Assembly: GCA_902803145.1 (NCBI GenBank)
Contig: CADCOT010000089.1
Location: 1-40,094, forward strand
Direction: 5' to 3'
Source of the DNA: an uncultured Spirochaetales bacterium
Lineage (GTDB): Bacteria; Spirochaetota; Spirochaetia; Sphaerochaetales; Sphaerochaetaceae
Length of the DNA: 40,094 nt
Made by a program: the position numbers and the translations under genes. How positions within the stretch are numbered: the first letter of the stretch is position 1; each line of letters opens with the position of its first letter. The notes beneath the pieces are model-generated. The model worked only from the letters and a program-made list of their open reading frames with translations, was not told where the DNA came from and did not search any database. This document shows, in pieces, positions 1,414 through 30,036 of this stretch.

Positions 1414-1499
1414 AATTACCTCTTTGTGGTTTTATGTTACGATTATAAATGACAAATATGTTCTTTTCAAAGAGTTAAGCTATCCTTAAGATTGAAAAT

Positions 1500-2852: not shown

Positions 2853-2856
2853 AGGT

Positions 2857-3792: not shown

Positions 3793-4634
3793 GCTGATTT
3801 TGCATCAGGAATAGGATACAGCGGGTAAACATGGTTCAGGCCATTTCCCACAATCAGTTCTACCGTTCTTCCTGCCTGCACCAGTTTTCTGTAAAACGCT
3901 GTTACATCCGGATAAAAAATCTCTCTAGTTCCTGTAAATAGCAAGGTTTCCGGAAAATTCTCAAGATTACCATACAGAGGACTTACTTTTGGATCTTTTG
4001 AATCAAGATTCCCTGCCCAGATGCGTCCCATCTCCCTAAGTCCGTCAACTCCCAGCATGGGATCTTTGTTTTCATAATCCGAGTAGTCACCTGACATTGA
4101 AATATCAACCCAAGGGGAGAGCAGACAGACTTTCTCTGGTAAGGCTATGCCCTGTTCTGAAAGATACATTACAAAAGCTGCAGCCAGACCGCCTCCTGCA
4201 CTGTCTCCCATTATCACAGCGGGGTGGTTGGCATTGTACAGATTTAAGAGAAAGTCAAACGTTTCTTCCCACGTGTGGTTTGGTGCAAGTCTGTAAAGCG
4301 GAATAACAAAGTTTACATTTGCTTCAGAGCACAAAACATCGCAATAGCATATGTGGAAGAACGATATTTGCTGAACATAGGCTCCTCCGTGAAGATAGAA
4401 AACTGTCTTTGCAGATTCGTTTTTCGGTGAAAAACGGATTACCTGGTTGCCCTGAAACTCGGTTATTTCAACATTGCTACGGTATAATCTGAAGGGGAGT
4501 CTGTAGGGTTTGTCTTCTATACGGCTGCGTCTTTTCATGTACTTTTGTGCTTTCTCAACACTGTCAAAGCAGCCTGTATTTATCAGTTTCAGGGTCTTTT
4601 CAGCGGCCCATGCCGCAAACGAACGGTTTTTCAT
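3699..4634 (-). CDS. Alpha/beta hydrolase (HSL/acetyl-esterase type)
   Basis: An alpha/beta-hydrolase-fold enzyme of the hormone-sensitive-lipase-like group (fold-3), probably a cytoplasmic carboxylesterase. It carries the oxyanion-hole motif 'YLHGGAY', the nucleophile elbow 'GDSAGGG' with catalytic Ser, a 'LLSPWVDIS' strand typical of the group, and a late 'GNGLNHVYPL' holding the catalytic His. The start is set at the ATG at 4634 (311 residues), because longer readings would overlap the divergent channel gene and add a low-complexity Cys/Arg/Phe-rich segment. No strong ribosome-binding site is visible there, so the start is uncertain. The last 94 bp overlap the HNH gene on the other strand. 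The substrate is unknown. Confidence 0.8.
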   Translation of the reverse strand: MKNRSFAAWAAEKTLKLINTGCFDSVEKAQKYMKRRSRIEDKPYRLPFRLYRSNVEITEFQGNQVIRFSPKNESAKTVFYLHGGAYVQQISFFHICYCDVLCSEANVNFVIPLYRLAPNHTWEETFDFLLNLYNANHPAVIMGDSAGGGLAAAFVMYLSEQGIALPEKVCLLSPWVDISMSGDYSDYENKDPMLGVDGLREMGRIWAGNLDSKDPKVSPLYGNLENFPETLLFTGTREIFYPDVTAFYRKLVQAGRTVELIVGNGLNHVYPLYPIPDAKSAHKAVVDFISDKSKRILPSDSLNSVSFNLKG

Positions 4635-4764: not shown

Positions 4765-7700
4765 GTGGCAAATACTAGGAAAGTCCTGAAGAGAAAAATA
4801 ATCACATACATTGTGACAGTTCTTGCGACAGTTGTTTTGATGATTGGTCTTCTTTCATTTATGCAGACACGTGGTCAGGCAGAGTATCAGAAGAACATGA
4901 GCCTTCTTCCTCTGTTGGATGAGATTGTTGAAGAGTTGGATCTTCATACTGAGAGCGTAGATGCTCTGACAAAGAGGTTCCACAACGCAAACCAGATTTC
5001 TGTCCGGCTTGTTGCTTTATTCCTGCAGTCCGGAGCATTTAAAGAAATCAATGACGCACCGGATGCAGTATCGGCTGCTACAGCCCTTAGAAATCTGACT
5101 TCAAATACAGGCTTGTATTCCATGATGATTGTGGATACTGCCGGTAATTTGCTTTTGATGGACAATGCAGATGTGTACCGCATGGCCGGTGGAGACATGC
5201 AGTACAACATGATAAAAGGCGTTGACAACCCCAACGGAGCCTTTACCCTTGTTGAGTTTGAAAGACTTACTGTAAACACTGCCGGATGGGAGGGAACATA
5301 TAAGCTTCTGCCAAACGGAACAGCACTTTTCTCACCAATTCAGACAGATGTAACTGCATCTGACGGTAAAACATATCACGGATATTACTACAGCACCCCA
5401 ATTAAAAACGAAGACGGAACTGCTTCCAGTTACTTCCTTATTGCTATGGCAGATGCCTCCCAGATGGAAGAAGATATTGCCGGTCTTACTAACATGAAGG
5501 ATGTTCTTGATTCCGTTGGAGTAGGTGATGACGGTTTTGTATTCTCTCTTGATCCTGCAACCGGAGACTTCTCTTTCTATGAAGATGCAGACGGTGTTGT
5601 CAGAACAGGAGAAAACTTCAGAGAAAGCGGCTTAACTGAAGATATTCTTAAAGACGGATATGCCGGAATTCAGACAATTTTCGGAACAGAGTACTACTGT
5701 GTTGCCAAGCAGTATACATCAGATGTCTTTGGTGACCGTATTGTAATTGCCGCAACCCTCCCTGAAACAGAACTGTACGGTTCCAGAATCTACAACATTT
5801 TCTGGTCATTATTGGCCTTCATTGTTGTAGGAAGCCTTATTTTGACCTATGCACTTATTTTCCAGTTAGACCAGATAAAAACCGCCAAAGTATTCTCTAC
5901 ACGTAAAACTTTGTATACAACAAAATCCGGAAAAGAGGTTTATTACAACAGAGCTCTTGCTGTAAAGATTTTCCCGCTTTTGTTAATTGGACTTCTGATT
6001 ATTTTTGCTGTTTCAATTTATACGCAGACACTTGCCTACCTTTCCACAGCAACAAGAATTTCAGAATCTAGAATTAAGGAAATTGGAGCAAGCGTAGAGA
6101 AGAATATTAAGAGGGCTGAAACTGTATCTGAATTCTACGACAAGCAGAATCTGAACAAGACTCTGCTTTTGGCAGATATTATCAAGAGAGCTCCTGAACT
6201 TGTCTTTGACTATGATATGACAGATGCTGTCCATTATGAGTATGCTAAGAACGAAGACGGAAGTATTGTTACAGACAATTACGGCAACCCGGTTCTTACT
6301 GCACGTTATCAGCCAAACCTTTTGGCTTTGTGTAAGGCCTACGACTTTGCTTCTATGTACGTTTTCAACGACAAGGGCCGCGTAATTGCCACAAGCACAC
6401 AGTGGTGGAACTTTGTCCTGAGCGAGGATCCTGAGGCTCAATCCTATCCGTTCCGCGATGTTCTTATAAATACAGACTCTTTGATTCAGGACCTTCAGAC
6501 AAGTGACATTGGACAGTCAGAGCAGTACATTGGCAGCGCATACTATTACTACACATACAACGACAACGGAACAACGCGTTTTGTTTCAGAGTATGAGTAT
6601 AAGAACGGTGTTAGAGCAGAAGACGGAACAATTATTGTCCCAAGTTCTGCAATTACCAGACACAGAGGTCTTGTTCAGACAAGTGTTTCTGCTCACAGCA
6701 TAGAAGACTACATTTCCATGACAACGGTTGAGTACACCATTGAAGGCATGAACATGTTCTATGAGGGTTCTTTCATAGCCTTCTCAGCAGATTCGGAGCA
6801 CAAGGTTCTTTACTCTCCGTTCAAGGAAAACGTAACAATTCCTGTAAGAGAGGGAATGTTTAACGGTAACTTCAACGGTTTCATTACAGTAAACGGAGTA
6901 AAATATTACTCAAGTATCAGAGAAGCAGGTGGAATCTTCCTTGGAACTTTGATTCCGACATCTACATTGTTCTCACTGAGAAATAACATTTCTACTGCAA
7001 CAATCATTATTGCTTTCATTTCTTTTGCAAACCTGCTTGGTTTCATGTTGTATTCAAACAGCGAACAAGATGACGCAATTTGGGAATATCTTGAAGAGAG
7101 AGACTTGGAATCTGAACAACTTGAACAAGCAGCCTCAGAGATGAAGAAGGGCAGTGCTGTCTTTGAAATGACAATGCCTGACGGCAAGAAGAAAACTGTC
7201 AAATCTGCCCAATCAAGATGGGCTAAACGTTTTACGGAATGGAGCAAGAAATCTGTTGAACAGAAGTTCTCAAGCATAGTTGGAATGTGCGCCATATTAT
7301 TCTTTGTGTTTATCCTTCTTTCGGTTCTTCTTGCTAAATACATATTCCCAAGCGGTTCAATTATGGATTACATAATTCACGGTGATCTTGAAAGAACTCC
7401 CAATATCTTTGTTCTTACAAAATGTGCCATGTTGTTTGTTATGGTTCTGTTCGGAGCCAAGATGGTTCAGAAAATTATCAATGTCCTTTCTTCCAACCTT
7501 GGAGCCAGGGCAGAGACTGTAGGACACCTTCTTGAGTCTGTTATCAAGTATGCAGGTGTTATTGGAATTGCCTTCTACTCCCTGTATCTTGTAGGTTTTA
7601 ACACGGCATCGCTTCTGACAAGCGCCGGAATCCTTTCCATTGTTGTTGGTCTTGGTGCCCAGAGCCTTATATCAGATATTCTTGCCGGTATCTTCATTGT

Positions 7701-8271
7701 ATTTGAAGGTGAGTTCAGAGTAGGAGACATTGTTACTATCTCTGACTTCAGAGGAACAGTTATTGAAATTGGAATCCGAACTACCAAGATTGAAGACTTC
7801 CTTGGAAATATTAAGATTTTCAATAACAGTCACATTTCCGGTGTTCTGAATATGACAAAAGAGTACTCTACAATACCGATTACTCTTTCAATTGAATACG
7901 GAGAATCTCTTGAGCGTGTTGAAAATGTTCTTAAGGAAGAATTCCCCAACATCAAGAGAAAAGTCCGCAAGATGGTAAACGGTCCGTTCTACAAGGGTGT
8001 TTCTGCCATGGCTGATAGTTCAGTAAATCTCTTGGTTGTTGCCCAGTGTTTGGAAGAAGACAGAGCTCAGGTACAGAGAGATCTGAACAGAGAGCTTTAT
8101 CTGGTCTTTAACAAGCACGGAATCAACGTTCCGTTCCCGCAGGTTACTGTTTCTTATCTTAAGGATGAAGAAAATAAGAAGGCCAACCTTAAGGAAAAGC
8201 GTGAAGCCGAACAGTTCATTGCAGATCAGAAGAGAAAATCAAAGGGTGTTGATACTCCGGAGAAAGACTAA
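4765..8271 (+). CDS. Giant sensor-linked mechanosensitive channel (double Cache + MscS)
   Basis: A 1168-residue inner-membrane protein. The GTG at 4765 is preferred because GGGGG sits 6 nt upstream. A TTG 6 nt earlier abuts that SD. Order: membrane helix (about 11-33); large outer domain (about 35-343) resembling a Cache sensor, with 'GVGDDGFVFSLDPATGDFSF'; helix (344-366); helix (402-422); second outer sensor-like domain (about 430-740); helix (743-763); charged cytoplasmic linker; helices near 836-864 and 882-905; then the MscS pore region (about 924-980), 'TSAGILSIVVGLGAQSLISD', and the beta domain 'GEFRVGDIVTISDFRGTV'. MscS channels open under membrane tension, and the outer domains suggest extra ligand control. 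The SpoIIE-phosphatase gene follows 4 nt after the stop. MscS identity is firm; the Cache assignments rest on pattern and topology. Confidence 0.9.
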   Translation: MANTRKVLKRKIITYIVTVLATVVLMIGLLSFMQTRGQAEYQKNMSLLPLLDEIVEELDLHTESVDALTKRFHNANQISVRLVALFLQSGAFKEINDAPDAVSAATALRNLTSNTGLYSMMIVDTAGNLLLMDNADVYRMAGGDMQYNMIKGVDNPNGAFTLVEFERLTVNTAGWEGTYKLLPNGTALFSPIQTDVTASDGKTYHGYYYSTPIKNEDGTASSYFLIAMADASQMEEDIAGLTNMKDVLDSVGVGDDGFVFSLDPATGDFSFYEDADGVVRTGENFRESGLTEDILKDGYAGIQTIFGTEYYCVAKQYTSDVFGDRIVIAATLPETELYGSRIYNIFWSLLAFIVVGSLILTYALIFQLDQIKTAKVFSTRKTLYTTKSGKEVYYNRALAVKIFPLLLIGLLIIFAVSIYTQTLAYLSTATRISESRIKEIGASVEKNIKRAETVSEFYDKQNLNKTLLLADIIKRAPELVFDYDMTDAVHYEYAKNEDGSIVTDNYGNPVLTARYQPNLLALCKAYDFASMYVFNDKGRVIATSTQWWNFVLSEDPEAQSYPFRDVLINTDSLIQDLQTSDIGQSEQYIGSAYYYYTYNDNGTTRFVSEYEYKNGVRAEDGTIIVPSSAITRHRGLVQTSVSAHSIEDYISMTTVEYTIEGMNMFYEGSFIAFSADSEHKVLYSPFKENVTIPVREGMFNGNFNGFITVNGVKYYSSIREAGGIFLGTLIPTSTLFSLRNNISTATIIIAFISFANLLGFMLYSNSEQDDAIWEYLEERDLESEQLEQAASEMKKGSAVFEMTMPDGKKKTVKSAQSRWAKRFTEWSKKSVEQKFSSIVGMCAILFFVFILLSVLLAKYIFPSGSIMDYIIHGDLERTPNIFVLTKCAMLFVMVLFGAKMVQKIINVLSSNLGARAETVGHLLESVIKYAGVIGIAFYSLYLVGFNTASLLTSAGILSIVVGLGAQSLISDILAGIFIVFEGEFRVGDIVTISDFRGTVIEIGIRTTKIEDFLGNIKIFNNSHISGVLNMTKEYSTIPITLSIEYGESLERVENVLKEEFPNIKRKVRKMVNGPFYKGVSAMADSSVNLLVVAQCLEEDRAQVQRDLNRELYLVFNKHGINVPFPQVTVSYLKDEENKKANLKEKREAEQFIADQKRKSKGVDTPEKD

Positions 8272-11439: not shown

Positions 11440-12123
11440 TTATTTTATTGATAATGTACGCCAGTAGACTTTGCGGTTAAGCTCTACAAAAACATAGCAC
11501 AGTCCCATGCCAATGCAGAAAATGATGGCTGCAATTCCCAGAACAAAAGCAACTCCTGTGCTTCTGATGTCTAGGAAGAAGTAGGGAACCATGTCCTGGG
11601 ATATGGGGCCTAATTCAATAAGAGAAAGAATCACTATTGTATAAATGAGAGCATAGGCATTGCCGGCAAAGATCCACCTGAAGCGGAATTTGCCGATAGG
11701 GGAATCGTTGTAGATAAAAGAAGCAATTGTCAGAATTGGGATAATCACATGCATAAACAGCATGTCCAATCTGTCAATGATCATATGGTCTTCAAAGAAA
11801 GGCAGCTGGCTGATCATTACCACAATAAAAATAATTCCCTCTGTTACGGCACTTGAGAGTCTTATCAAATAGATAAAATTCTTTGTGAGTTCGGTGTATT
11901 TCTCAAACTCAACAATATTTACAACTACAGCTATTGCAGTAAGGACGGTTGCAAAGATTGTTCCGTCTACCGTAAGCCACCTGAAAGTAAATACGCCGTC
12001 AGCATCGTGCATAAAGATGAAGTGGACTGAAAAAATGCCCATCAGCACGGTTGCAATTGAGATTATTATGTTTGTTATCTTCTTTTTTCTGTACTTTGCA
12101 TTAAAGATTTCAAGCGGTTCCAT
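11440..12123 (-). CDS. Conserved multi-pass membrane protein, copy A
   Basis: A 227-residue protein with about six hydrophobic segments; family not recognised. Starting at the ATG at 12123 (AGGAG 8 nt upstream, inside the preceding gene) gives 'MEPLEIFNAKYRKKKITNI', aligning at residue 1 with its paralogue at 14347-15036. The two share long nearly identical stretches, for example 'FIYNDSPIGKFRFRWIF' and 'DIRSTGVAFVLGIAAIIFC', and the same C-terminus 'ELNRKVYWRTLSIK'. It overlaps the upstream YwaF-like gene by 14 bp, implying translational coupling and a joint role. It ends 11 bp from the convergent SpoIIE gene. The function is unknown. Confidence 0.8.
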   Translation of the reverse strand: MEPLEIFNAKYRKKKITNIIISIATVLMGIFSVHFIFMHDADGVFTFRWLTVDGTIFATVLTAIAVVVNIVEFEKYTELTKNFIYLIRLSSAVTEGIIFIVVMISQLPFFEDHMIIDRLDMLFMHVIIPILTIASFIYNDSPIGKFRFRWIFAGNAYALIYTIVILSLIELGPISQDMVPYFFLDIRSTGVAFVLGIAAIIFCIGMGLCYVFVELNRKVYWRTLSIK

Positions 12124-12928
12124 CGGGCCTTCTCCTGAAAGGAATATAGACAAGTATTAAAAGAATGAGAGCAAGAACAAAGCGAATCAAAAGGTACAAA
12201 AGCCACTGCCACTTCTCTGTAAGCACAAGACCCAGAGGGTTTACGTAAGAAGAGAACAAGTTGATTCTGTGGGTTGCTCCTACAAGCTCTCCGTTAAAGT
12301 AGACTTTATTTGAGAGAACTGAGTTCAAGTAGAACGTAGGAATGTCCATAAGTATTAAAGCAAACAGGGCCAAACGCCATTTTTTGAATGTAAGGCCACT
12401 CTCGGGACACATGCCTATGTAGATACTCAATACAACAATCATGGAGTGGTAGAGGAAAAACTGATACATGCGTGCAGATGTGAAGAAATCGCCCATTAGG
12501 GCCGCGTAGGAAGCTGCCCCTGAAAAAACAATGCCAAAAACCCCGCCAATGACTCCTGTAGGATACATGATGGCGTATATATTCTGTTTTTTCTTCTCAT
12601 CTTTGATAAGGATGGCAAGCAACATTAACACAATCTGGAGGCTACACAATTCAAGGGGAATATGCTCAGAACCAAGTAATGGTGTGTAGTCGTTTTCCGG
12701 GATATAGGTCAGAACAGGCTGGCCGTTTTGCATTACTACTGCCGGATTTACCACCGGAACAATGAGAGCAACTGATAAAATTTTTACAAATTCAGAGATA
12801 AGACCTAGAAAAAAACAGATTTTAATCACTTTGATAAGTGGAGGCTTTGTTTTTTTGAGGTACAGAATACCTGCAATGATTAAAACGATGGATATAGCTA
12901 TCCAGATTAAATGGCCTGTAGTAAACAT
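12110..12928 (-). CDS. YwaF/TIGR02206-like integral membrane protein, copy A
   Basis: A 272-residue protein with about seven hydrophobic helices. It resembles YwaF/TIGR02206-family membrane proteins: 'GSEHIPLELCSLQIVLML' followed by 'IYAIMYPTGVIGGVFGIVF'. The family core is usually HLCSL; here the His is Glu, while the paralogue at 15083 keeps 'LPLHLCSI'. The N-terminus 'MFTTGHLIWIAIS' aligns with 'MFSLQHIIWVVIS' in that paralogue, supporting the start. There is no Shine-Dalgarno sequence: a Rho-independent terminator for the upstream SDR gene ends just before the start codon. Expression may therefore depend on readthrough or a leaderless start. It is coupled by 14 bp overlap to the small membrane protein downstream. 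The biochemical role is unknown. Confidence 0.75.
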   Translation of the reverse strand: MFTTGHLIWIAISIVLIIAGILYLKKTKPPLIKVIKICFFLGLISEFVKILSVALIVPVVNPAVVMQNGQPVLTYIPENDYTPLLGSEHIPLELCSLQIVLMLLAILIKDEKKKQNIYAIMYPTGVIGGVFGIVFSGAASYAALMGDFFTSARMYQFFLYHSMIVVLSIYIGMCPESGLTFKKWRLALFALILMDIPTFYLNSVLSNKVYFNGELVGATHRINLFSSYVNPLGLVLTEKWQWLLYLLIRFVLALILLILVYIPFRRRPDGTA

Positions 12929-15036: not shown

Positions 15037-15082
15037 AAATATGATAATAATTCTTTTTCCAGTATTGGCAAGGGGAGTAATT

Positions 15083-15871
15083 ATGTTTTCTTTGCAACAC
15101 ATAATATGGGTGGTAATATCAATTATCCTTACTGCTATAAATTTGTTCTTTATGAAGCAGAGAAGGTCGTCTCTTAAAAATGTTCTCACTGCATGCTGTA
15201 TTGTCTGCGTAGCATCAGAAGTAACAAAGATTCTAAGCTGTATTGAGATGGTACCGTCATCAGATGGCTCAATAATGTATCCATACCTTCAGATGCAGCA
15301 TCTTCCGCTGCACCTTTGTTCAATCATGATATTTGCCATCTTCTACTGCAGATTTGGTAAAGGAACCATAGCTGAAAGCAAGATAAAGCAGTTCTTACTT
15401 GCATTCATGTATCCAACATGCGTTTTGGGTGCATTCTTTGCCATAGCTCTTCCTTCAATCTTCAGTACAACAATTACAGTCAATCAGGCATTTACTCATC
15501 CAATTGCCTACCAGTTGTTCATCTATCATTCAGTACTGTTGTCTTTGGGACTGTACATTCCTATGTCAGGAGAGGTTCGCTTTTCATGGTCCACATACAA
15601 GAGCACAATGATTTCCCTTATTGGTCTGACTTTCTTTGAAATCTATTTCAATTCAATTTTTGCCAGCCCCACCTATGTAAACGGAAAACTTGTCAGTGTT
15701 GACTACGTAACTAACTTCTTTTTCCTGTACCGCACACCGATTGGAATTGCACTGAACACAAAGCTTGCCTGGATTATCTATCTTTTAATTCTGGTAGCTC
15801 TGGCTTTCTCTTTAATTGCTTTGTTGTACCTTCCATTGAAGAAAAACACTGTTAAAGATAGAATACGGTAA
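15083..15871 (+). CDS. YwaF/TIGR02206-like integral membrane protein, copy B
   Basis: A 262-residue membrane protein with about seven helices. 'MQHLPLHLCSIMIFAIFYC' carries the family HLCS motif, followed by 'LAFMYPTCVLGAFFAIALP' and 'AYQLFIYHSVLLSLGLYIPM'. The start at 15083 has GGGGAG 6 nt upstream, and the N-terminus matches copy A; an ATG 42 nt upstream lacks this support. The metallophosphoesterase gene begins 21 bp after the stop, suggesting a joint transcript. YwaF-type proteins have no settled biochemical role. Confidence 0.78.
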   Translation: MFSLQHIIWVVISIILTAINLFFMKQRRSSLKNVLTACCIVCVASEVTKILSCIEMVPSSDGSIMYPYLQMQHLPLHLCSIMIFAIFYCRFGKGTIAESKIKQFLLAFMYPTCVLGAFFAIALPSIFSTTITVNQAFTHPIAYQLFIYHSVLLSLGLYIPMSGEVRFSWSTYKSTMISLIGLTFFEIYFNSIFASPTYVNGKLVSVDYVTNFFFLYRTPIGIALNTKLAWIIYLLILVALAFSLIALLYLPLKKNTVKDRIR

Positions 15872-17288: not shown

Positions 17289-17519
17289 ATGGAGAATAAG
17301 AAAATATTCCGAGAGAAGAGCCTTGAAAGGATTTCCTCTCCGGACAAGATTAACGATTATATCAAGACAACAACGCCCGGAATCTGGATTGTTCTCATTG
17401 CCGTTCTGCTTATTCTGGCAGGAGCAATAGTCTGGAGTGTGTTTGGTCGCATTACGGTGAATACCCCGTCCGGAAGCAAGACGGTTGCTCCCGTTACATA
17501 CATTCTGCCTTCTGAGTGA
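17289..17519 (+). CDS. Very short HlyD-type membrane-anchor protein of the peptide exporter
   Basis: A 76-residue protein. 'KSLERISSPDKINDYIKTTT' and then 'PGIWIVLIAVLLILAGAIVW' match the N-terminus of NHLM-type bacteriocin secretion (HlyD/membrane-fusion) proteins, which are normally about 250 residues or more. Here the reading stops shortly after the single membrane helix (about 31-53) and a short outer tail, and the ABC exporter begins within 10 bp. No remnant of the missing hairpin and lipoyl domains is visible. GGAG lies 6 nt before the ATG. It could be a genuine mini-anchor or an old truncation. Confidence 0.7.
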   Translation: MENKKIFREKSLERISSPDKINDYIKTTTPGIWIVLIAVLLILAGAIVWSVFGRITVNTPSGSKTVAPVTYILPSE

Positions 17520-17527
17520 GATTGGGT

Positions 17528-19681
17528 ATGAAGATAGCAAAGGTTCCTGTCATTTTACAGATGGAAGCTCAGGAGTGCGGGGCAGCATGTCTTACGATGG
17601 TGCTTGCCTATTACGGCAAATGGGTTCCCCTGGAAAAGATAAGAGAAGACTGCGGTGTGTCCAGAGACGGAGTCAAGGCGGGTAACATAGCAAGAGTTGC
17701 CAGAACTTATGGACTTGAGGCCAACGGATACAGCATGGAGCTTGAACAACTCAAGCAGCAAGCTGTTTTTCCCTGCATTATTCACTGGAACTTTGACCAC
17801 TTTGTAGTACTCAAGGGATTCAAAAAAAACAGATATTACATTAATGACCCGGAGAAGGGAGATCTTGTCTTATCTGAGAAAGAGTTTGATGAAGGCTTTA
17901 CCGGTGTGTGCCTTATGTTCGCTCCGGGAAAGACTTTCAAGCCATCAGGTTCTCCGAAAAGTATTTTTGCGTTTGCAGCAAAAAGAATGAAGAAGATAAA
18001 GAACGAGATGCGCTTTGTTGCCATTGCCACGGCAATTCTGTCCCTGTTGGGAATAATCTCAGCTGCAATGTCACGCTTTTTCTTGGACAACCTTCTTGGC
18101 GGAGGCAACCCCGATTCAGTAAGACCGTTTATACTGATACTCTGCGGTTTCACCCTTATAGAGGCCATAACTGCATGGCTTCTGTCCTATAACTCATTTA
18201 AAATCAGCGGAAAGTTTGCCGCTTCTGAGAACGCCAGTTTCTTTTGGCATGTTTTGCATCTGCCCATGAGGTTCTTCTCACAGAGAATGGCAGGCGATAT
18301 TGAGCAGAGAAGGGAATCCAGCGCCCAGATAGCTGACCGCCTGGTCAACATACTTGCCCCTCTGTTCATAAACATTGTGATGCTTGTGTTCTACTTTGTG
18401 GTAATGCTCAAGTATTCCGTTACAATGACCCTTATCGGGCTGTTCTTTGTAATTCTTAATCTGTTTATAACAAGTCTTGTGGGACGCAAAAGAACCAACC
18501 TCATGCGTGTAATGCTCAGAAACGAGGCCAAGCTTTATTCTGCAACATTGCACGGTGTGGATATGGTGGAATCCATAAAGAGCAGCGGTGCAGAAAACAG
18601 TTTCTTCCGTAAGTGGGCAGGATATCAGGCCGGAGTAAACACCCAGAATGTTGAATTTGCACGCCTTGATGCAAGGTTGGGAAAGCTTCCTCAGATAATA
18701 ATGGAGCTTACAGGAAACCTGATCTTGGTGATGGGAGCATATCTTGTTATTAAAGGCAACTTCACACCAGGTATGGTCTTGGCTTTTTCCGCTCTTATGA
18801 CAAAATTCTTCCTTCCTTCAGAGACACTTGCTGAAGCCGGACGTCAGATGCAGGAAATGCGTAGCGACATGGAACGCATAGATGACGTTATGGATTATCC
18901 ACAGGACTACATGTTTGCCGAAGCAAAGCGCAGCAAGAAAAAAGAGGAAAGGGCAAAACTTAGCGGAAACATCAGTGTCAGAAATGTACAGTTCGGGTAT
19001 TCAAATCTGACAGAGCCTCTTATCAAAGATTTCAATTTGGAACTTGAACCCGGAAAGAGCGTTGCAATAGTGGGAAGCTCCGGCTGCGGAAAGAGTACCA
19101 TGAGCCGCCTTCTTTCAGGTCTTTACAGACCTTGGGAAGGAGAGATTCTTTATGATGGCAAGGCTATAGATGAAATTGACCGAGATGTCTTTACAGGCTC
19201 CGTTGCCGTTGTTGATCAGAACATAATCCTGTTTGAGGATACAATTGCCAACAATATCAAGATGTGGGATACCTCAATTGAGGATTTTGAAATGATAATG
19301 GCCGCCAGAGACGCTCAGATTCATGACGACATTATGGAGCGTGACGGCGGTTACCAATACAGACTTTCAGAAGACGGAAGAGACCTTTCCGGAGGTCAGA
19401 GGCAGCGTCTTGAGATTGCCAGAGTGCTGGCTCAGGATCCGTCTATAGTCATAATGGATGAGGCTACAAACGCTCTTGATGCCCAGACTGAATATGATGT
19501 TGTAAAGTCAATTAAGGATAGGGGGATAACCTGTGTAGTCATTGCCCACAGGCTCTCTACCATACGCGACTGTGATGAGATCATCGTCCTTGATAAAGGA
19601 CAGATTACAGAGCGTGGGACCCATGATGAACTTATGAAGCTTGATGGCCGGTATACAAGGCTTGTCACCGTTGAGGAGTAG
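17528..19681 (+). CDS. Peptidase (C39)/ABC exporter for leader peptides, NHLM type 1
   Basis: A 717-residue inner-membrane exporter. The N-terminal C39 peptidase (about 1-135) has 'QMEAQECGAACLTMVLAYYG' (catalytic C17, Q11), 'IIHWNFDHFVVL' (His) and 'INDPEKG' (Asp), so it should cut after the double glycine. Six membrane helices (about 155-430) follow, then an ATPase domain with Walker A 'GSSGCGKST', signature 'DLSGGQRQRLEIA', Walker B 'IVIMDEATNALD' and H-loop 'VIAHRLSTI'. A GTG at 17516 overlaps the preceding stop codon; I prefer the ATG at 17528, though neither has a strong SD. Architecture and neighbour match the NHLM-type peptidase/ABC pair. Confidence 0.9.
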   Translation: MKIAKVPVILQMEAQECGAACLTMVLAYYGKWVPLEKIREDCGVSRDGVKAGNIARVARTYGLEANGYSMELEQLKQQAVFPCIIHWNFDHFVVLKGFKKNRYYINDPEKGDLVLSEKEFDEGFTGVCLMFAPGKTFKPSGSPKSIFAFAAKRMKKIKNEMRFVAIATAILSLLGIISAAMSRFFLDNLLGGGNPDSVRPFILILCGFTLIEAITAWLLSYNSFKISGKFAASENASFFWHVLHLPMRFFSQRMAGDIEQRRESSAQIADRLVNILAPLFINIVMLVFYFVVMLKYSVTMTLIGLFFVILNLFITSLVGRKRTNLMRVMLRNEAKLYSATLHGVDMVESIKSSGAENSFFRKWAGYQAGVNTQNVEFARLDARLGKLPQIIMELTGNLILVMGAYLVIKGNFTPGMVLAFSALMTKFFLPSETLAEAGRQMQEMRSDMERIDDVMDYPQDYMFAEAKRSKKKEERAKLSGNISVRNVQFGYSNLTEPLIKDFNLELEPGKSVAIVGSSGCGKSTMSRLLSGLYRPWEGEILYDGKAIDEIDRDVFTGSVAVVDQNIILFEDTIANNIKMWDTSIEDFEMIMAARDAQIHDDIMERDGGYQYRLSEDGRDLSGGQRQRLEIARVLAQDPSIVIMDEATNALDAQTEYDVVKSIKDRGITCVVIAHRLSTIRDCDEIIVLDKGQITERGTHDELMKLDGRYTRLVTVEE

Positions 19682-19689
19682 GTACTGTT

Positions 19690-21846
19690 TTGAGTTGGTT
19701 TGAAGAACAGATTGAATTGAGAAAGAAAGCAGATAAGGAAGCCCTTGAGGATTCCTGTATGCAAATTGCAGGCTCTGTAACCGGAAAGATAATCAACGCC
19801 GCCCTCCATGACGGTGCAGTTGCAGAGATTCTTGCTTTCTACCACATAAAGAACAGGGAAGTCCCCAAAGATATAGAGTCTATTCTCAGACCTTCAGGAA
19901 TAATGATGAGGGATGTTGTCCTTTCGGAAAAATGGAGCAGCGATGCATCCGGGGCAATGCTTGCCAACTTCAAAGGCAGTAAGAATCCGGTTGCCCTGAT
20001 TCCTGACGGAGTTAAGGGATACAGATACCTTGATCCTAAAACGGGGCGTTTTGCTCATGTAAACAAGGACAGTGAAAAGCTTTTTGAGAATGAAGCTGTT
20101 GTGTTCTATAAGCCGCTTCCCAGTGAAAAACTGACAGTAAAGACACTGTATCGTTTTATTCTGAACTGTGTGGATAGAAAGGCTCTTGCCGGCTACCTTG
20201 TCTTTGGCTTGGTGTCTTTGTTTACAGGTATGCTGCTTCCGCTTTTGTCCAGAAACCTCTTTTCAACAGTTATTCCCACGGGCTCTGCTTCTGCTCTTAT
20301 TGCAGTTGCAGTTTTCATATTCTGTGTCTCCATAGGCAAATTCCTGTTCTCCGTTGTTCAGGATCTGTATCTGAAAAAGATATCTTTGGGTGTTAACCTT
20401 ACTTTGGAAAGTGCAACAATGATGAGGGTTCTCTCATTGCCCGTTTCTTTCTTTAAGAAGTACTCTGCAGGTGATTTGGGAAGAAGGGTTTCCTATGTAT
20501 CTCTTCTTGCAGAGAATCTGATAGACATGGGTTTTGCAGGTTTGTTTACAGCCGGCATTTCCATACTTTATGTATTTCAGATATTCACATTTGCTGCTCC
20601 GGTGGCACTTCCGGCTTTGATTGTCACAGTCTTGGTAGTTGCAACGGATATTATCACCCTTGTTCTCAGATCAAGAATCAAAGTAAAGCAGATGGAGTTG
20701 TCTGCAAAGGAAAGCGGTCTGTCTTATTCCTTTGTTTCAGGTATTGAGAAGATCAAACTCGCAGGTGCTGAAAACCGTGCTTTTGCCAAGTGGGGAAAGG
20801 CCTATGCTCAGCAGGCTGAGCTTATGTACAACCCGCCGGCCTTTATCAAGGTTTCCAGTGCAATAACCAGAATAATCCCGCTGGTCGGTACTATTGTCAT
20901 TTATCTTTCTGCAATAAAGTCCGGCCTGTCCGTTGGTGATTACTACGCATTTAACACTGCATTCGGAATGGTAACAGGCGCTCTTACATCACTTGGTTTG
21001 ATAATCGGCCCCGTGTCTGCCGTGCGTCCTATTCTTGAACTTGTTAAGCCCATAATGGAGACAGTTCCTGAGGTTTCAGAGGACAAACCTGTCATAGAAA
21101 AACTCTCCGGAGCTGTTGAGCTGAACAATGTATCATTCCGCTACAATGACAACATGCCACTGGTTCTGAACAATCTTAACCTTAAGATAAAACCGGGCGA
21201 GTATGTTGCAATAACAGGCAAAACAGGGTGCGGTAAGAGCACTCTGATGAGAATACTGCTTGGTTTTGAGACCCCTCAGAAGGGAGCTGTCTACTATGAC
21301 GGAAAAGACCTTTCCAAGATTGACCTTAAGTCTCTTAGGTCCAAGATAGGTACTGTTATGCAGAACGGGGATCTTTTCTCAGGTAATATTTTCTCAAACA
21401 TTGCTATTTCTGCTCCCGATCTTACATTGGATCAGGCTTGGGAAGCTGCCGAATCAGCAGGTATTGCGGATGACTTAAGGGAAATGCCCATGGGTATGTT
21501 TACCCTTATCTCCGAGGGTGCAAGTGAAATATCAGGAGGACAAAAGCAGAGAATCCTGATTGCCAGGGCAATTGCATCCCGTCCCAAGATTTTGATGTTT
21601 GACGAGGCCACAAGTGCTCTTGATAATTTAGCCCAGAAACAGGTTACAGACTCTTTAGACAAGCTTGATTGCACCAGGATAGTTATCGCCCACAGATTAT
21701 CAACAATAAGGCACTGTGACAGGATTATCGTTTTGGATAACGGCAGGATTGTGGAAGACGGAAACTACGAGAGTCTGATGAAGAAGAACGGTTTCTTTGC
21801 TGAACTTGTAAAGCGCCAGCAGGTTGAGAAAGGAAAAAAGGCATGA
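19690..21846 (+). CDS. Second ABC transporter of the peptide export system, NHLM type 2
   Basis: A 718-residue protein with a TTG start, GGAG 11 nt upstream, 8 bp after the first exporter gene. A soluble N-terminal region of about 150 residues lacks the C39 catalytic Cys. Six membrane helices (about 160-440) and an ATPase domain follow, with 'GKTGCGKST', 'EISGGQKQRILIA', 'ILMFDEATSALD' and 'VIAHRLSTI'. The pair of one peptidase-bearing and one peptidase-less ABC protein is characteristic of NHLM-type bacteriocin systems; they may form a heterodimer. The next gene overlaps by ATGA. Confidence 0.88.
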   Translation: MSWFEEQIELRKKADKEALEDSCMQIAGSVTGKIINAALHDGAVAEILAFYHIKNREVPKDIESILRPSGIMMRDVVLSEKWSSDASGAMLANFKGSKNPVALIPDGVKGYRYLDPKTGRFAHVNKDSEKLFENEAVVFYKPLPSEKLTVKTLYRFILNCVDRKALAGYLVFGLVSLFTGMLLPLLSRNLFSTVIPTGSASALIAVAVFIFCVSIGKFLFSVVQDLYLKKISLGVNLTLESATMMRVLSLPVSFFKKYSAGDLGRRVSYVSLLAENLIDMGFAGLFTAGISILYVFQIFTFAAPVALPALIVTVLVVATDIITLVLRSRIKVKQMELSAKESGLSYSFVSGIEKIKLAGAENRAFAKWGKAYAQQAELMYNPPAFIKVSSAITRIIPLVGTIVIYLSAIKSGLSVGDYYAFNTAFGMVTGALTSLGLIIGPVSAVRPILELVKPIMETVPEVSEDKPVIEKLSGAVELNNVSFRYNDNMPLVLNNLNLKIKPGEYVAITGKTGCGKSTLMRILLGFETPQKGAVYYDGKDLSKIDLKSLRSKIGTVMQNGDLFSGNIFSNIAISAPDLTLDQAWEAAESAGIADDLREMPMGMFTLISEGASEISGGQKQRILIARAIASRPKILMFDEATSALDNLAQKQVTDSLDKLDCTRIVIAHRLSTIRHCDRIIVLDNGRIVEDGNYESLMKKNGFFAELVKRQQVEKGKKA

Positions 21847-22337
21847 CGTTTCCCCAGGTCTATGAGACATATTATAAAAATGTATTCAACATGGTATACA
21901 TGAGGTTGCTCAACCGCGACGACGCCGAAGATGTGGTCCAGGAAATCTTTATTCATGCATACTCGGCCTGGGATTCCTATAATCAGGAAAAGGGCTCTGT
22001 TCTGACCTGGCTCTATGCTATTGCAAAAAACACACTGATTAACTACATGAGAAAGAACAAGAGCTTTTCACAGCCTTTTTCTATTGATGATGTGGTTGAA
22101 CCGGGAATTGAAGACAAAGAACTTGCTGCCCTTACAGATGACAACGCTCACGATGCCTACCTTATCCTTAGACAACTGAAAGACAGTGACCGCGAGCTTT
22201 TGACAATGCGCTATACCATGAATATGTCTTATAGAGAAATTGCAGAGGAAATAGGTTCCAATGAAAAGGCTGTTGGTAAGCGTATGGAACGTCTGGTTTC
22301 CAAGTGCCAAACAATAGCTGAAAAAATCAATTTGTAA
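21843..22337 (+). CDS. ECF-type RNA polymerase sigma factor
   Basis: A 164-residue sigma-70-family protein of ECF size. Region 2 has 'NRDDAEDVVQEIFIHAYSAW' and 'VLTWLYAIAKNTLINYMRK'. Region 4 has 'DRELLTMRYTMNMSYREIAE' followed by 'IGSNEKAVGKRMERL'. Its ATG overlaps the ABC stop (ATGA), so it is translationally coupled to the exporter. No anti-sigma gene follows. The duplicated block before precursors 1 and 2 is its likely target, giving a self-contained cassette switch. Confidence 0.88.
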   Translation: MTFPQVYETYYKNVFNMVYMRLLNRDDAEDVVQEIFIHAYSAWDSYNQEKGSVLTWLYAIAKNTLINYMRKNKSFSQPFSIDDVVEPGIEDKELAALTDDNAHDAYLILRQLKDSDRELLTMRYTMNMSYREIAEEIGSNEKAVGKRMERLVSKCQTIAEKINL

Positions 22338-24884: not shown

Positions 24885-25649
24885 GTTTTAGATGATGAAT
24901 TCACTTTAGCACAGTCCTAAAACCCAAACAATTCCAACTGGTCGTTTCCGGTCGTTTTAGATGAATTCACTTTAGCACAGTCCTAAAACACAATTCCGAT
25001 GGTGCTGTTCTTGACACAGGTTTTAGATGAATTCACTTTAGCACAGTTCTAAAACACACTCTATGCAGGTATCACAACTGCATCTGTTTTAGATGAATTC
25101 ACTTTAGCACAGTCCTAAAACAGCGTATATAGCAATTAAACAGTCCCTATGGTTTTAGATGAATTCACTTTAGCACAGTCCTAAAACGAAGCGGAGTGAA
25201 GGTGCCATTGTCTACTTGTTTTAGATGAATTCACTTTAGCACAGTCCTAAAACATGGTGGAGATTTTATAAGCCTTCCATCTAGTTTTAGATGAATTCAC
25301 TTTAGCACAGTCCTAAAACGTAATAAATTTTTCCCAAATGGGCTGACCGGTTTTAGATGAATTCACTTTAGCACAGTCCTAAAACGCGATAGTCAGTTCG
25401 GTTTGGTCATCAAGTGTTTTAGATGAATTCACTTTAGCACAGTCCTAAAACTTGCCTGTTCAGCCATAGCCGAAATCTCTGATTTTAGATGAATTCACTT
25501 TAGCACAGTCCTAAAACTAGAGCAGGGCACTACTGAAACATCTGAGTCTTTTAGATGAATTCACTTTAGCACAGTCCTAAAACTAGTTGTAGAAACCATA
25601 CTCCCTGTCTTCTGTTTTAGATGAATTTACTTTAGCACAGTCCTAAAAC
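24885..25649 (-). CRISPR. Type II CRISPR array, 12 repeats and 11 spacers
   Basis: The 36-bp repeat begins GTTTTAGGACTGTGCTAAAG on the transcribed (minus) strand and ends TGAATTCATCTAAAAC. All 11 spacers are exactly 30 nt, giving a strict 66-bp period from 24954. Orientation is set by the tracrRNA anti-repeat and by the leader-like TTGAG at the 25649 end. Variants: the leader-distal copy (24885-24923) is 39 bp through a GAT duplication; the copy at 25020 has one C-to-T; those at 25482 and 25548 differ at the outermost base; that at 25614 has one C-to-T inside. No spacer was seen to match elsewhere in the window, but this was not searched systematically. Confidence 0.98.
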
Positions 25650-25663
25650 CTCAAGCAACTATA
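25650..25663 (-). promoter_or_regulatory. Residual CRISPR leader end
   Basis: On the minus strand CTTGAG (25650-25655) abuts the first repeat, close to the ATTTGAG leader-anchoring sequence of type II-A systems. A -10-like TATAGT (25658-25663) precedes it. A convincing -35 is not visible. Coding remnants reach to within about 9 nt of the array, so a normal leader of about 100 nt is missing. Confidence 0.45.
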
Positions 25664-25924
25664 TTGATTGAGGTTTAGGCTGTTTTGGATACACGATTTC
25701 CTCGTTGTAATCTTCATCAATATACAACGAATAAACATACATACTTTATTGTTTGCCAATTCAGCAAGTAATACACCAGTCAGAGAAACTGCAGGGGTCT
25801 CAAATATCACAGTGCTGATTTCAGAGACGTGAATCATTGTCATCTTCTCTTCTTTTATCAGCATATACCCGTTTTTATAACTGCACTTGCAATGACTGGT
25901 TATTACAACAGTCCTAAATCCCAA
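25659..25924 (-). pseudogene. cas1: Truncated cas1 remnant between cas9 and the array
   Basis: The minus-strand frame from the TTG at 25924 (AGGAG 8 nt upstream, overlapping the end of cas9) reads 'GFRTVVITSHCKCSYKNGY', then 'IHVSEISTVIFETPAVSL' and 'TGVLLAELANNK'. This matches the N-terminal 60 residues of type II Cas1 (compare the 'WRTVV...HLSEI' start of streptococcal Cas1). After about 25742 the similarity ends; full Cas1 is about 290-300 residues. In this frame the reading runs into the first CRISPR repeat and stops there. Another frame gives a tail 'YIDEDYNEEIVYP' ending at 25659, which could be the C-terminus of a deleted neighbour such as csn2 (weak). No catalytic Cas1 residues remain. 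Confidence 0.75.
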
Positions 25925-28900
25925 GTGTGTAACTCCTAGTATGCATACCCGTAATAGAAGAATCAACAAACTTGATATTTTCAGGCTTGAGAACTTTTAG
26001 GAGCCTTGAACTTGGAATATCAAAATCCAAAATTCTTTGATTAGCATCAACTCTTTTCCAATTTGGCTTATCTACACGTTTGCTATTTGCATGTAAAACC
26101 GTAAGCATGTTTTGAATATGCTTTATCTTTTCTGCAACCGGCAACTCCATGAAAACAGCTTTGTAACTATAACATGCTTTTCCAATGTTTCTGAAACATG
26201 GATAATACTTGTCCATTCTTTCGCAAAGCTCAACATAGAGATTTTCAATTCTCGGAAAATCTTCATTACAAATCTTTTCAACAGAATTAAATAGTTTGTC
26301 TAATGTGTGTAAAGACCAGTCAGTCAACCACAATTGTTTGGCATTGATTACCTCAGAATTGCCTACAAGATAGTACTCGTCAATATTACCTTTTTCATAG
26401 TAATAAAAATGTTGATACTTTTTTATTTTTTTGTTTTTGACTATCGTCGGCTCCTTGAAACCTGATTCCTTAAGATAGTCATTGATTGCTGAAGGATGCT
26501 GTTTCTGAAGTGCAACTATTCTTATGGGAATGCCTACAATAGAATAAGTAATTTTTCCTTTCTTGTCTAAGTGTTCTACTACACAGAAAAATGCATCCTG
26601 TTCGCCTGTATAACCTCCATACAGTTCGGGTTTAAGACCTTTTTTCTTTTGGATCAGTTTTTCTGGATTACTTGTTTTTTTAAGCGGAATCTGATTATAG
26701 AACTCTCCTGTCTGCTCTTCCACTAGACAATTGACGTAAAAATCATGCCGTTTTGAAAAATTCAGGAGATCAAGCTGATGCTTTGGTCCGTCCCATCCAG
26801 TTGTTGGCTGACAAAAAAGCTCTGCTATAATACCATACCGGGCCTCTCTCTTCGTTCCGACACCTGCTATTAGATTACGATAAATGTTATTGACTTCTGT
26901 TCGTGGCAGAGAAAGTCGCTTCTGTGCAAAAAGGCCTGCGAGGATGGCTGTATAAGCATCAACCGCATGATGGAAATCATTAACATCTCTAATTTTAATT
27001 ACTCCTATACGGCTTTTGAGATTTCTCGATAGTTTTGCAGATACTCCGTACACGTTGAGCCGGCCTGAATACGCTGCCTTCAATGCGTTGTAAACATTAG
27101 TACATATTTGCCTAGTTTCCACCAGCTGTCTATTGATGAAACCTTCCATTGCGTTTTCATCGACAGTTCTTCTGCAAAGATTGTTGTATTTTTTCTGACT
27201 TATTAATTTGTTTTTTAGAAGAAGTTCCCACATGTTCTTTTGTGAATCAATAATTGAATCATCAAGAACCTTTGAATCGAGTTTTCTTTGGTTTTTTGAG
27301 GCTTTAACAAGCGCAAGATTGTCGAAACTGTCATCCTTTACATAGCATCTAGGAAGAATGTGGTCAATTTGATAATTATTCAATTCGGACAGTTCTAGAG
27401 GTTCCCCACTGTAAAGGCATTTTCCGTTCTGAATGAAATAAAGTGCCACAGCTTTCTTGTCCAGATCTTTAGGATGATTACTATATTCTTTTAGTTCGTT
27501 ATATACTTTTTTAAACCAATCATCATTTGTTTTGGAATAGATTTTATCCAACTTTCTGTATCGACTCATTGTACGTTTTTTCTGTTCGTCACCAGAGGCA
27601 ACCTCAATGAAGACATTAGACGGAGAGCACCCCATAATCTTTTCAATCTCATCTATAACTTTAGCAGCTACCAATGAGCACTTCTTGATTGCAGGAGATC
27701 CAGGATAATTGGTAATAATATCTTTTACAGATTTGGCTTCTTCTGCTCCCTGATTTGCGTTCTCTGCTGCAATTAGGTATTCAAAATCATAGTTCTTATT
27801 AAATAGAATCTGCATAAGATTCTGATCTGTAGACCGAAGAAGATCCATAATTGTAACAGGAAATCCGTTTTTATCCTTAGAGTACAAGCCGGTTAGTAGC
27901 TTTCTGCTGAGCTTACCCCAACCTGTATATGAAAGTCGAAGGATGTCTTTGATTATATAATCAGAATAGTTCTCTGGTAACAATTCCCTTATCTTTGTTT
28001 CTAAAACATCTTTATTCTCAAATATTGTAATATATTCGATAATCTTTTCTGCCAGCTCATATTTTTCATTTGAATCAATGTCGCCAATAAACCTGGTTAG
28101 ATCTATATAAGAGCTTAGATTTGATATGAATTTGGAAGGGTCTGAAAGTCCGGATACAAACGGTAACTGTTTTGCTTCCGGCATGTATTTATTTCTGTAC
28201 CAATTTTTGAATAAAGATAGGCTTACTGACTTATGCGTTTTGAACAATTCTTCTACTGCAGCAATCTTGCAATCTGGAGTCAGATGTCGATTATCCACAT
28301 ATACATTGGAAAGCTCGGAAAGAACCGTATATTCGGAAAATAGGAGAGATTTTTTCGGTAGAACGTTCTCATGAATCAAATAGGAGCATTTGTTTGTAAG
28401 CCGTCTAATAAACTGTTCTGCTGTCTCTTTATAGTCCACAACTTGTTTGAAATTCCAAGGGTAAATCTTATCTTTTGACCTGACAACCCAATGCCGTTCA
28501 TCACTAGAACTGAGGGGGCCTACAAAGTAGGGAATGCGGAATGATGCAATTGAGAGAACCTTATCCTTGATTTCATTCAAATATGGATAGTATTTTGACT
28601 GCTTATCAATAATTGCAACAAGCTCCTCACAATGTAGTTGATTAGGTATAGCTCCATTATTGTTGTTTCTTGGTTTTAGAAGGAACAGTTCTTCTTCTAT
28701 TCTTCTGATACAGTATTGAACATCAGCATCCTGAGGCATTTTAAGTAGTTCCTTTTTTATTACACTACAAAGGTCTTTGTTTGAGCAGCTTCGCGTTGAT
28801 TTAATGTAATTCGCATAGCTTTTGACTTTGTTGCCTGTGCTGTTGATTATCGTATTGTAGTCTTTCTCAGAGGTGTATTTTTTCAGAACTCTTTTAAGCG

Positions 28901-29873
28901 TTTCAAGATCTTTATGATGAGCATCATAAACAGCAATGTAGGCATCTGAAATTGTTGAAACATTGCCAGAAAGAAGGGAGGTAAGAACTTGACCAGAGTA
29001 TACTTTTTGGATTGCTTCGAATTGTAAAACTTGATTGTCATCAAGGCTTTCTTCGGCTTCAATATATTTCTCATCAACAAATGAAACTTTTTTCTCTTCA
29101 ATTCCAAACAATATAGATATGTCTGCAGAATAACCCATAATCAAAGAAGCAATTGCTTTTGCCCAGTTTTTGGGCTTTTCAATTCCTTCTAGGGCACACT
29201 CTGATAAAAGGTCTGAAATCTTGTCTCTTCTGTCGGCTTTTTTGCTTCCCACATCAGCAATAGCAGTCTCAATGGCTTCTACAAGACTGTTATCATCGTC
29301 AACAGATAATTCCAAAGCTTCGAGCATATTCCTGATGCTCCCCTGAAGGTTGAGGTTTTTGATGCTGATTTTTTGGCCTTCATAGAGAAAATTGCCCCTG
29401 TATTTTACTATGTGATGTAAAGCAAGATAGACTAGCCTGATATCCATCGGTGCATCAATCACAGCTAGGCTTTTTCGCAGATGATAGATTGTATGAAAAG
29501 TCTCGTGGAATTCATGTGATTTGTAATATGAGTTGTCAAATAGCAGAGCTGGGTCAATTTCACAAGATTCATCTCCGTGCGCAACATAGGAATATTTGAG
29601 TCTCTGAAAAAAATTCGGATCCTCCTTTTCAAAAAGGGGATATAGGAGATTTTGAAGCCATTCAATGCGCTGACGCCGTCTGGCAAGTCTTCTCCTGGTA
29701 GACCTGAACAACCTCCTTGCTGAAGCCGTTTTGCCTTCTTCTTGAATCAGGACAACGCCGCTCATGGGCTTCTTCCTATAAGTAAGTATGTCACCCTGAG
29801 AGTCTGCAACCGCCCATCCAAGACTGTTAGTTCCGATATCAAGTCCAATGTTGTAATTAAGGTTTTTCTGCAT
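25914..29873 (-). CDS. cas9: Cas9 RNA-guided DNA endonuclease, type II-A-like
   Basis: A 1319-residue Cas9. It binds crRNA paired with tracrRNA and cuts both strands of matching DNA. RuvC-I is 'YNIGLDIGTNSLGWAVAD' (D12); the Arg-rich bridge helix is 'RRLFRSTRRRLARRRQRIEW'; RuvC-II is 'VFIEVASGDEQKKR' (E757); HNH is 'YQIDHILPRCYVKD' (D837, H838), followed by 'SFDNLALV'; RuvC-III is 'DFHHAVDAYTAI' (H969, D972). All catalytic residues are present and spaced as in the S. pyogenes enzyme. The start at 29873 has GGGGAG 9 nt upstream; an in-frame ATG at 29924 lies at the tracrRNA promoter and lacks an SD. The stop overlaps the cas1 remnant, as in normal cas9-cas1 coupling. Cas2 and Csn2 are absent. 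Confidence 0.98.
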   Translation of the reverse strand: MQKNLNYNIGLDIGTNSLGWAVADSQGDILTYRKKPMSGVVLIQEEGKTASARRLFRSTRRRLARRRQRIEWLQNLLYPLFEKEDPNFFQRLKYSYVAHGDESCEIDPALLFDNSYYKSHEFHETFHTIYHLRKSLAVIDAPMDIRLVYLALHHIVKYRGNFLYEGQKISIKNLNLQGSIRNMLEALELSVDDDNSLVEAIETAIADVGSKKADRRDKISDLLSECALEGIEKPKNWAKAIASLIMGYSADISILFGIEEKKVSFVDEKYIEAEESLDDNQVLQFEAIQKVYSGQVLTSLLSGNVSTISDAYIAVYDAHHKDLETLKRVLKKYTSEKDYNTIINSTGNKVKSYANYIKSTRSCSNKDLCSVIKKELLKMPQDADVQYCIRRIEEELFLLKPRNNNNGAIPNQLHCEELVAIIDKQSKYYPYLNEIKDKVLSIASFRIPYFVGPLSSSDERHWVVRSKDKIYPWNFKQVVDYKETAEQFIRRLTNKCSYLIHENVLPKKSLLFSEYTVLSELSNVYVDNRHLTPDCKIAAVEELFKTHKSVSLSLFKNWYRNKYMPEAKQLPFVSGLSDPSKFISNLSSYIDLTRFIGDIDSNEKYELAEKIIEYITIFENKDVLETKIRELLPENYSDYIIKDILRLSYTGWGKLSRKLLTGLYSKDKNGFPVTIMDLLRSTDQNLMQILFNKNYDFEYLIAAENANQGAEEAKSVKDIITNYPGSPAIKKCSLVAAKVIDEIEKIMGCSPSNVFIEVASGDEQKKRTMSRYRKLDKIYSKTNDDWFKKVYNELKEYSNHPKDLDKKAVALYFIQNGKCLYSGEPLELSELNNYQIDHILPRCYVKDDSFDNLALVKASKNQRKLDSKVLDDSIIDSQKNMWELLLKNKLISQKKYNNLCRRTVDENAMEGFINRQLVETRQICTNVYNALKAAYSGRLNVYGVSAKLSRNLKSRIGVIKIRDVNDFHHAVDAYTAILAGLFAQKRLSLPRTEVNNIYRNLIAGVGTKREARYGIIAELFCQPTTGWDGPKHQLDLLNFSKRHDFYVNCLVEEQTGEFYNQIPLKKTSNPEKLIQKKKGLKPELYGGYTGEQDAFFCVVEHLDKKGKITYSIVGIPIRIVALQKQHPSAINDYLKESGFKEPTIVKNKKIKKYQHFYYYEKGNIDEYYLVGNSEVINAKQLWLTDWSLHTLDKLFNSVEKICNEDFPRIENLYVELCERMDKYYPCFRNIGKACYSYKAVFMELPVAEKIKHIQNMLTVLHANSKRVDKPNWKRVDANQRILDFDIPSSRLLKVLKPENIKFVDSSITGMHTRSYTLGI

Positions 29874-29892
29874 ATAGCAATTCTCCCCGCAA

Positions 29893-29921
29893 TTGATTTC
29901 CAATTTAATATGTGCTAGAAT
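29893..29921 (+). promoter_or_regulatory. tracrRNA promoter
   Basis: TTGATT (29893-29898), 17 bp, TAGAAT (29916-29921) preceded by TGC, an extended -10. The expected start, about 7 nt on at 29928, is the first base of the anti-repeat. It lies in the cas9 5' untranslated region on the opposite strand. Confidence 0.75.
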
Positions 29922-29927
29922 CAAATC

Positions 29928-30036
29928 AGATGAATTGACTTTAGCACAGTCAAGTTAAAACAAATCGAAAGATTTAATGCCTGTTTTTCAGGCCCTGTAT
30001 TGACAGGAAAAGCAAGGTTTGACCTTGCTTTTTTTT
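29928..30036 (+). ncRNA. tracrRNA
   Basis: About 109 nt, divergent from cas9. The anti-repeat 29928-29951 pairs with repeat positions 8-31 at 23 of 24 bases. An AAGU bulge opposite a single G, then UAAAAC pairing with the first six repeat bases, gives the same AAGUUAAAA arrangement as the S. pyogenes tracrRNA. Downstream hairpins: AAATC-GAAA-GATTT (29962-29975), GCCTG-T5-CAGGC (29979-29993), CCTGT-ATTG-ACAGG (29994-30007) and the terminator AAAGCAAGGT-TTG-ACCTTGCTTT followed by T's to 30036. The set is complete and should be functional with the adjacent Cas9. Confidence 0.93.

Follow-up and report, generated by a model that had tools for sequence, protein, structure and literature searches.

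A Spirochaetal type II-A CRISPR-Cas locus that has very probably lost its adaptation genes through a single deletion

Introduction

A type II-A CRISPR-Cas locus in an uncultured Spirochaetales bacterium (family Sphaerochaetaceae) raises the question of what became of the genes that belong between cas9 and the CRISPR array. The locus lies in the 40,094-nucleotide stretch of contig CADCOT010000089.1 that was analysed here and is referred to as the window. A first-pass annotation had noted that the expected cas1-cas2-csn2 set is missing from this interval, and in related loci a complete set does occupy exactly that place. We propose that the adaptation module was very probably removed by a single deletion of about 1.6 kb, leaving a locus that is predicted to have kept interference and lost spacer addition, with the array as a fixed memory.

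Results and Discussion

Remnants of cas1 and csn2 between cas9 and the array

The interval begins with the first 61 codons of cas1 (25742..25924, minus strand). Read on the minus strand from 25924, the DNA translates to LGFRTVVITSHCKCSYKNGYMLIKEEKMTMIHVSEISTVIFETPAVSLTGVLLAELANNKV, the N-terminus of a type II Cas1. The TTG start codon (25924) overlaps the stop codon of cas9 (25916-25914) and has AGGAG upstream, both as described in the first-pass annotation, and the estimate given there of some 60 codons of type II cas1 agrees with a match to PADLOC Cas1_II over residues 1-64 (E=1e-15). The stump is also matched by TIGR03639 from NCBIfam (E=9.6e-10) and, in tblastn, by the Cas1 of a relative, G038 (1.3e-17); a Pfam search returned no match to it. 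It is identical to the Cas1 of the closest relative, G027, at 41 of 61 residues (67%) and to that of G038 at 33 of 61. The frame had been said to run into the first repeat and end there, and this is what is found: likeness to Cas1 stops at codon 61-63, and the same frame stays open until a stop within that repeat. Every catalytic Cas1 residue is absent from the stump. A stray repeat considered at 25903-25924 was rejected, this being cas1 coding sequence (LGFRTVV) common to the relatives.

A second frame, suspected earlier to be the tail of the final gene among those lost, can be identified as the end of csn2 (last 28 codons and stop; 25659..25745, minus strand). Running from 25745 to 25659 in a different reading frame from the cas1 stump, it reads SMYVYSLYIDEDYNEEIVYPKQPKPQSI before its stop codon and matches the Csn2 tail YVDEDYEEEVLLP of G027, in which the full protein ends in SPYARIIYVDEDYEEEVLLPLR. 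This match scores 61, a value reached by none of 20,000 shuffles (best shuffle, 56). Among 11,436 six-frame tiles across the window no other scores as high, and only overlapping tiles come close. Against the more distant Csn2 of G038 alone the match is marginal (p ~0.04-0.05); the comparison with G027 decided the assignment. Both relatives have a complete csn2. Where an intact csn2 would be the last gene before a type II-A array, the present locus has this 28-codon C-terminal remnant, in the correct place. The check suggested with the annotation thus assigns the first frame to Cas1 and the second to the csn2 tail.

The cas1 start lies 274 bp from the first repeat here, but 1.89-2.02 kb from it in 23 of the 24 related loci compared. 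In the remaining locus (L028, from G042) the array lies 3.2 kb from cas1, and an extra gene of 394 residues (6773-7957), unlike anything in the other loci, is situated between csn2 and the array. Because the relatives span about 1.9-2.0 kb between cas1 and the array, one deletion within the locus, of about 1.6 kb, would account for the arrangement. Starting from a presumed ancestral type II-A order of tracrRNA / cas9-cas1-cas2-csn2-array, such a deletion would have taken most of cas1, the whole of cas2 and most of csn2.

Cas9, tracrRNA and predicted interference

The cas9 gene (type II-A; 25914..29924, minus strand) was taken as the longest frame, 1336 aa in length; the true start is likely an ATG about 17 codons into that frame (MQKNLNYNIGLDIG). 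Its product matches TIGR01865 over the full length (E=1.3e-220) and, in Pfam, Cas9_REC, HNH and Cas9_PI. All of the catalytic motifs are kept (GLDIG D29, FIE E774, DH H855, FDN N869 and HHAVD H986/D989), the correspondence of these residues to positions in SpCas9 being in part our assumption. The locus therefore encodes the effector typical of type II-A, with RuvC and HNH domains, and the description of Cas9 as intact holds for its length, for its REC, HNH, RuvC and PAM-interacting regions and for its catalytic residues.

The same is true of the tracrRNA, which is encoded divergently upstream of cas9 (29928..30036, plus strand) and had likewise been called intact. Its anti-repeat (29928-29963) matches the CRISPR repeat at 96%, forms a duplex of -39 kcal/mol that is strong with every repeat variant, and is followed by a terminator hairpin at about 30008-30036. 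A promoter-like site lies at 29893-29921 (two such sites were found, against 1.5 expected by chance). The orientation of the tracrRNA indicates that the array is read from the cas9 side.

Since Cas9, the tracrRNA and 11 spacers remain, interference is predicted to be retained, and, judged from the sequence, crRNAs are most likely still made and matching DNA still cut. Recent use of the array is not demonstrated. No spacer matched phages or plasmids, the six of 11 spacers compared with viral contigs gave no exact match, and neither the genome itself nor the family genomes contained a convincing match. This lack of a protospacer among the spacers tested counts against the explanation that we favor. 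A Cas9 scan of genome and viral contig collections and a repeat scan of genome contigs yielded no close relative.

The array and its leader end

The CRISPR array (24885..25649, minus strand) is built from twelve 36-nt repeats (GTTTTAGGACTGTGCTAAAGTGAATTCATCTAAAAC), between which lie 11 spacers of 30 nt. Its distal repeat has a 3-nt insertion, and because the degenerate repeat sits at the far end, the leader end must adjoin the cas9-array interval. Directly after the csn2 stop and before the first repeat is the retained 3′ end of the leader, TTGCTTGAG (25650..25658, minus strand), which is identical to the 9 nt before the first repeat in G027; TTGAG or a similar sequence is found at the leader end in most relatives. 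The TTGAG/GTTT seen here resembles the Group 1 consensus, ATTTGAG/GTTT, of the type II-A leader-anchoring motif (PMC5382924). Upstream of the csn2 tail the leader has mostly disappeared, and the neighborhood of the array yielded no promoter-like site, so that crRNA transcription may rely on read-through from cas9 or be weak. With the anchoring motif and the first repeat kept, the array would still be a substrate for a compatible Cas1-Cas2-Csn2 supplied in trans, and whether a conserved leader end suffices for accepting spacers in this way is a question to which the locus lends itself as a natural test.

The leader-proximal repeat (25614..25649, minus strand) carries a private G-to-A substitution (AAAGTAAATT), present in one of the 12 repeats. 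In 24 intact relatives the leader-proximal repeat bears no substitution at all; the lone mismatch listed for one of these (L053) is the base preceding the repeat and is not counted as a repeat substitution. Acquisition in type II-A systems copies the first repeat. Because of this duplication, the presence of the substitution in repeat 1 and not in repeat 2 implies that no spacer was gained after the mutation arose, and this one mutation is suggestive of an array frozen ever since. The substitution falls on the sole internal position of the anti-repeat duplex that was already mismatched and costs 2.6 of 39 kcal/mol; crRNA function should consequently be little affected.

Probable loss of adaptation in the genome and in the family

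The genome comprises 1.54 Mb in 150 contigs and is 95.6% complete. Searches of it with Cas1 PF01867 and Cas2 PF09827 gave no match, an absence that covers Cas1 and Cas2; the cas1 stump is the only type II Cas1 signal, and there is no second array with the same repeat. The search for another cas1 or cas2 recommended in the annotation thus came back empty. Instead of a functional cas1-cas2 module, the locus has a cas1 that ends at codon 61 and no cas2, and since neither gene was found elsewhere in the genome, it is best regarded as a degenerate derivative of type II-A rather than a complete type II-A locus. A cas9 and an array in a genome without cas1 or cas2 conform to the Cas9-only form of type II. 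With no Cas1, Cas2 or Csn2 remaining, the locus is predicted to be unable to add spacers. The suggestion that it may be fixed, able to interfere but not to gain spacers, is in keeping with the lack of a second cas1 or cas2 and with the private substitution in repeat 1.

A survey of the family covered the 26 genomes whose Cas9 match reached E<=1e-100, in which type II cas1 was called by its curated cut-off. A type II cas1 exceeds this cut-off in 22 of the 26. In G020, G105 and G129, judging from coordinates, cas9 reaches the contig end, and the genome described here is the only one of the 26 with cas9 inside a contig and without a complete cas1. Two genomes of the same genus (78% and 57% complete) have no cas9.

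The nearest homologue of both remnants, on contig C81 of G027 (same family, other genus), has likewise lost adaptation, but by an IS21-type insertion after cas1 codon 98. In this locus (L050; 724-4153) istA and istB frames, encoded on the opposite strand, separate the two parts of cas1 (724-1020 and 3599-4153). Its cas2 and csn2 genes are undamaged, and the array has dwindled to about one spacer. Next comes a second CRISPR with other repeats and a Cas2-like gene of its own. Adaptation thus appears to have been lost at least twice independently in the family, by different mechanisms (deletion and IS21-type insertion), which suggests that it can be the first function to go. It could further be supposed that the module was lost under selection, with Cas9 and a frozen array retained for fixed defense or gene regulation, and with acquisition-only loss recurring in the family; we consider this quite unlikely.

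Another account has acquisition continuing in trans, through the Cas1-Cas2(-Csn2) of another replicon or locus such as a plasmid or a contig outside the bin. Cross-help between CRISPR loci is known (PMC8092290), the leader end and first repeat that it would use are in place, and plasmids are often missing from bins, this one being 95.6% complete. However, the bin has no match to either the Cas1 or the Cas2 family, and the private mutation means that repeat 1 has not been copied since it arose. On balance, ongoing acquisition in trans is very unlikely.

The proposed deletion junction

Under the single-deletion reading, cas1 codon 61 would have been fused to the 28-codon 3′ end of csn2, with the leader end and the array left untouched. 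The junction (25730..25745), delimited by the end of Cas1 likeness and the start of the Csn2 frame, is resolved to about 15 bp, and GTATGTATG at this point is a possible microhomology. A junction of this kind might be produced by misassembly or misbinning of a locus that is in truth complete, and an assembly in 150 contigs is fragmented. Yet the window lies within one contig, no long repeat is present at the junction to mislead the assembler, the two gene ends are correctly ordered and oriented next to an intact leader end, and the remaining cas1 and the cas2 are on no other contig. An artefact is accordingly highly improbable.

The stump differs from the G027 cas1 at 18, 10 and 38 sites by codon position. 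This excess at third positions implies that most of the divergence from G027 arose while cas1 was still under constraint. Private changes number nine in the stump and two in G027 (p=0.07), so that the relative-rate excess is not significant. Taken jointly, the two patterns suggest that the loss may be fairly recent relative to the split from G027. We give almost no credence to the idea that the 93-codon fused frame encodes a functional small protein, or that selection maintains the region as a new regulatory leader: the ribosome site and start codon are kept and no stop interrupts the frame before the first repeat, but beyond codon 61 it is csn2 sequence read out of frame, it has no Cas1 catalytic domain, and the private changes, if anything in excess, fit relaxed constraint.

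Relation to known systems

The locus shares with type II-A (cas9-cas1-cas2-csn2) its gene order, Cas9 family, tracrRNA, 36-nt repeats and 30-nt spacers, the csn2 tail and TTGAG/GTTT, and differs in that cas1, cas2 and csn2 are cut down to remnants of 61 and 28 codons. Cas9-only type II loci are already known, and the present one is an unusually legible case derived from type II-A. In Campylobacter coli clade 3 (PMC4607530) and CampyICE1 (PMC8743540), cas9, tracrRNA and arrays occur without cas1 or cas2, and the available texts propose that these loci are unable to acquire spacers. Those loci are of type II-C, and the same texts describe no fossil of the lost genes, whereas in the type II-A locus studied here the scar can be read on both sides. 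In house-finch Mycoplasma gallisepticum (PMC11893278), the type II CRISPR decayed within a lineage through mutations and deletions; there, cas9 is usually inactivated and mutations in cas1 and cas2 are additional, in contrast to the intact cas9 and the loss of adaptation alone seen here. The locus is a readable fossil of an adaptive immune locus turning into a fixed one, in which both ends of the deletion can be identified alongside a surviving effector, guide RNA parts, leader motif and array.

Additional observations

Locus L020 (contig C10 of G038) has a cas9 spread over two overlapping frames of 976 and 374 residues (563-4589), reflecting a frameshift or a sequencing error, and beside this split cas9 are an intact cas1-cas2-csn2 set and some 32 perfect repeats. 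Elsewhere in the window, two TMEM164-family membrane proteins are encoded in opposite orientation within 3 kb of each other (12110-12928 and 15041-15871). Two ABC exporters are encoded one after the other, the first of them bearing a C39 peptidase domain, and an ECF-like sigma factor follows (17516-22337); the arrangement recalls a cluster for exporting a peptide or bacteriocin.
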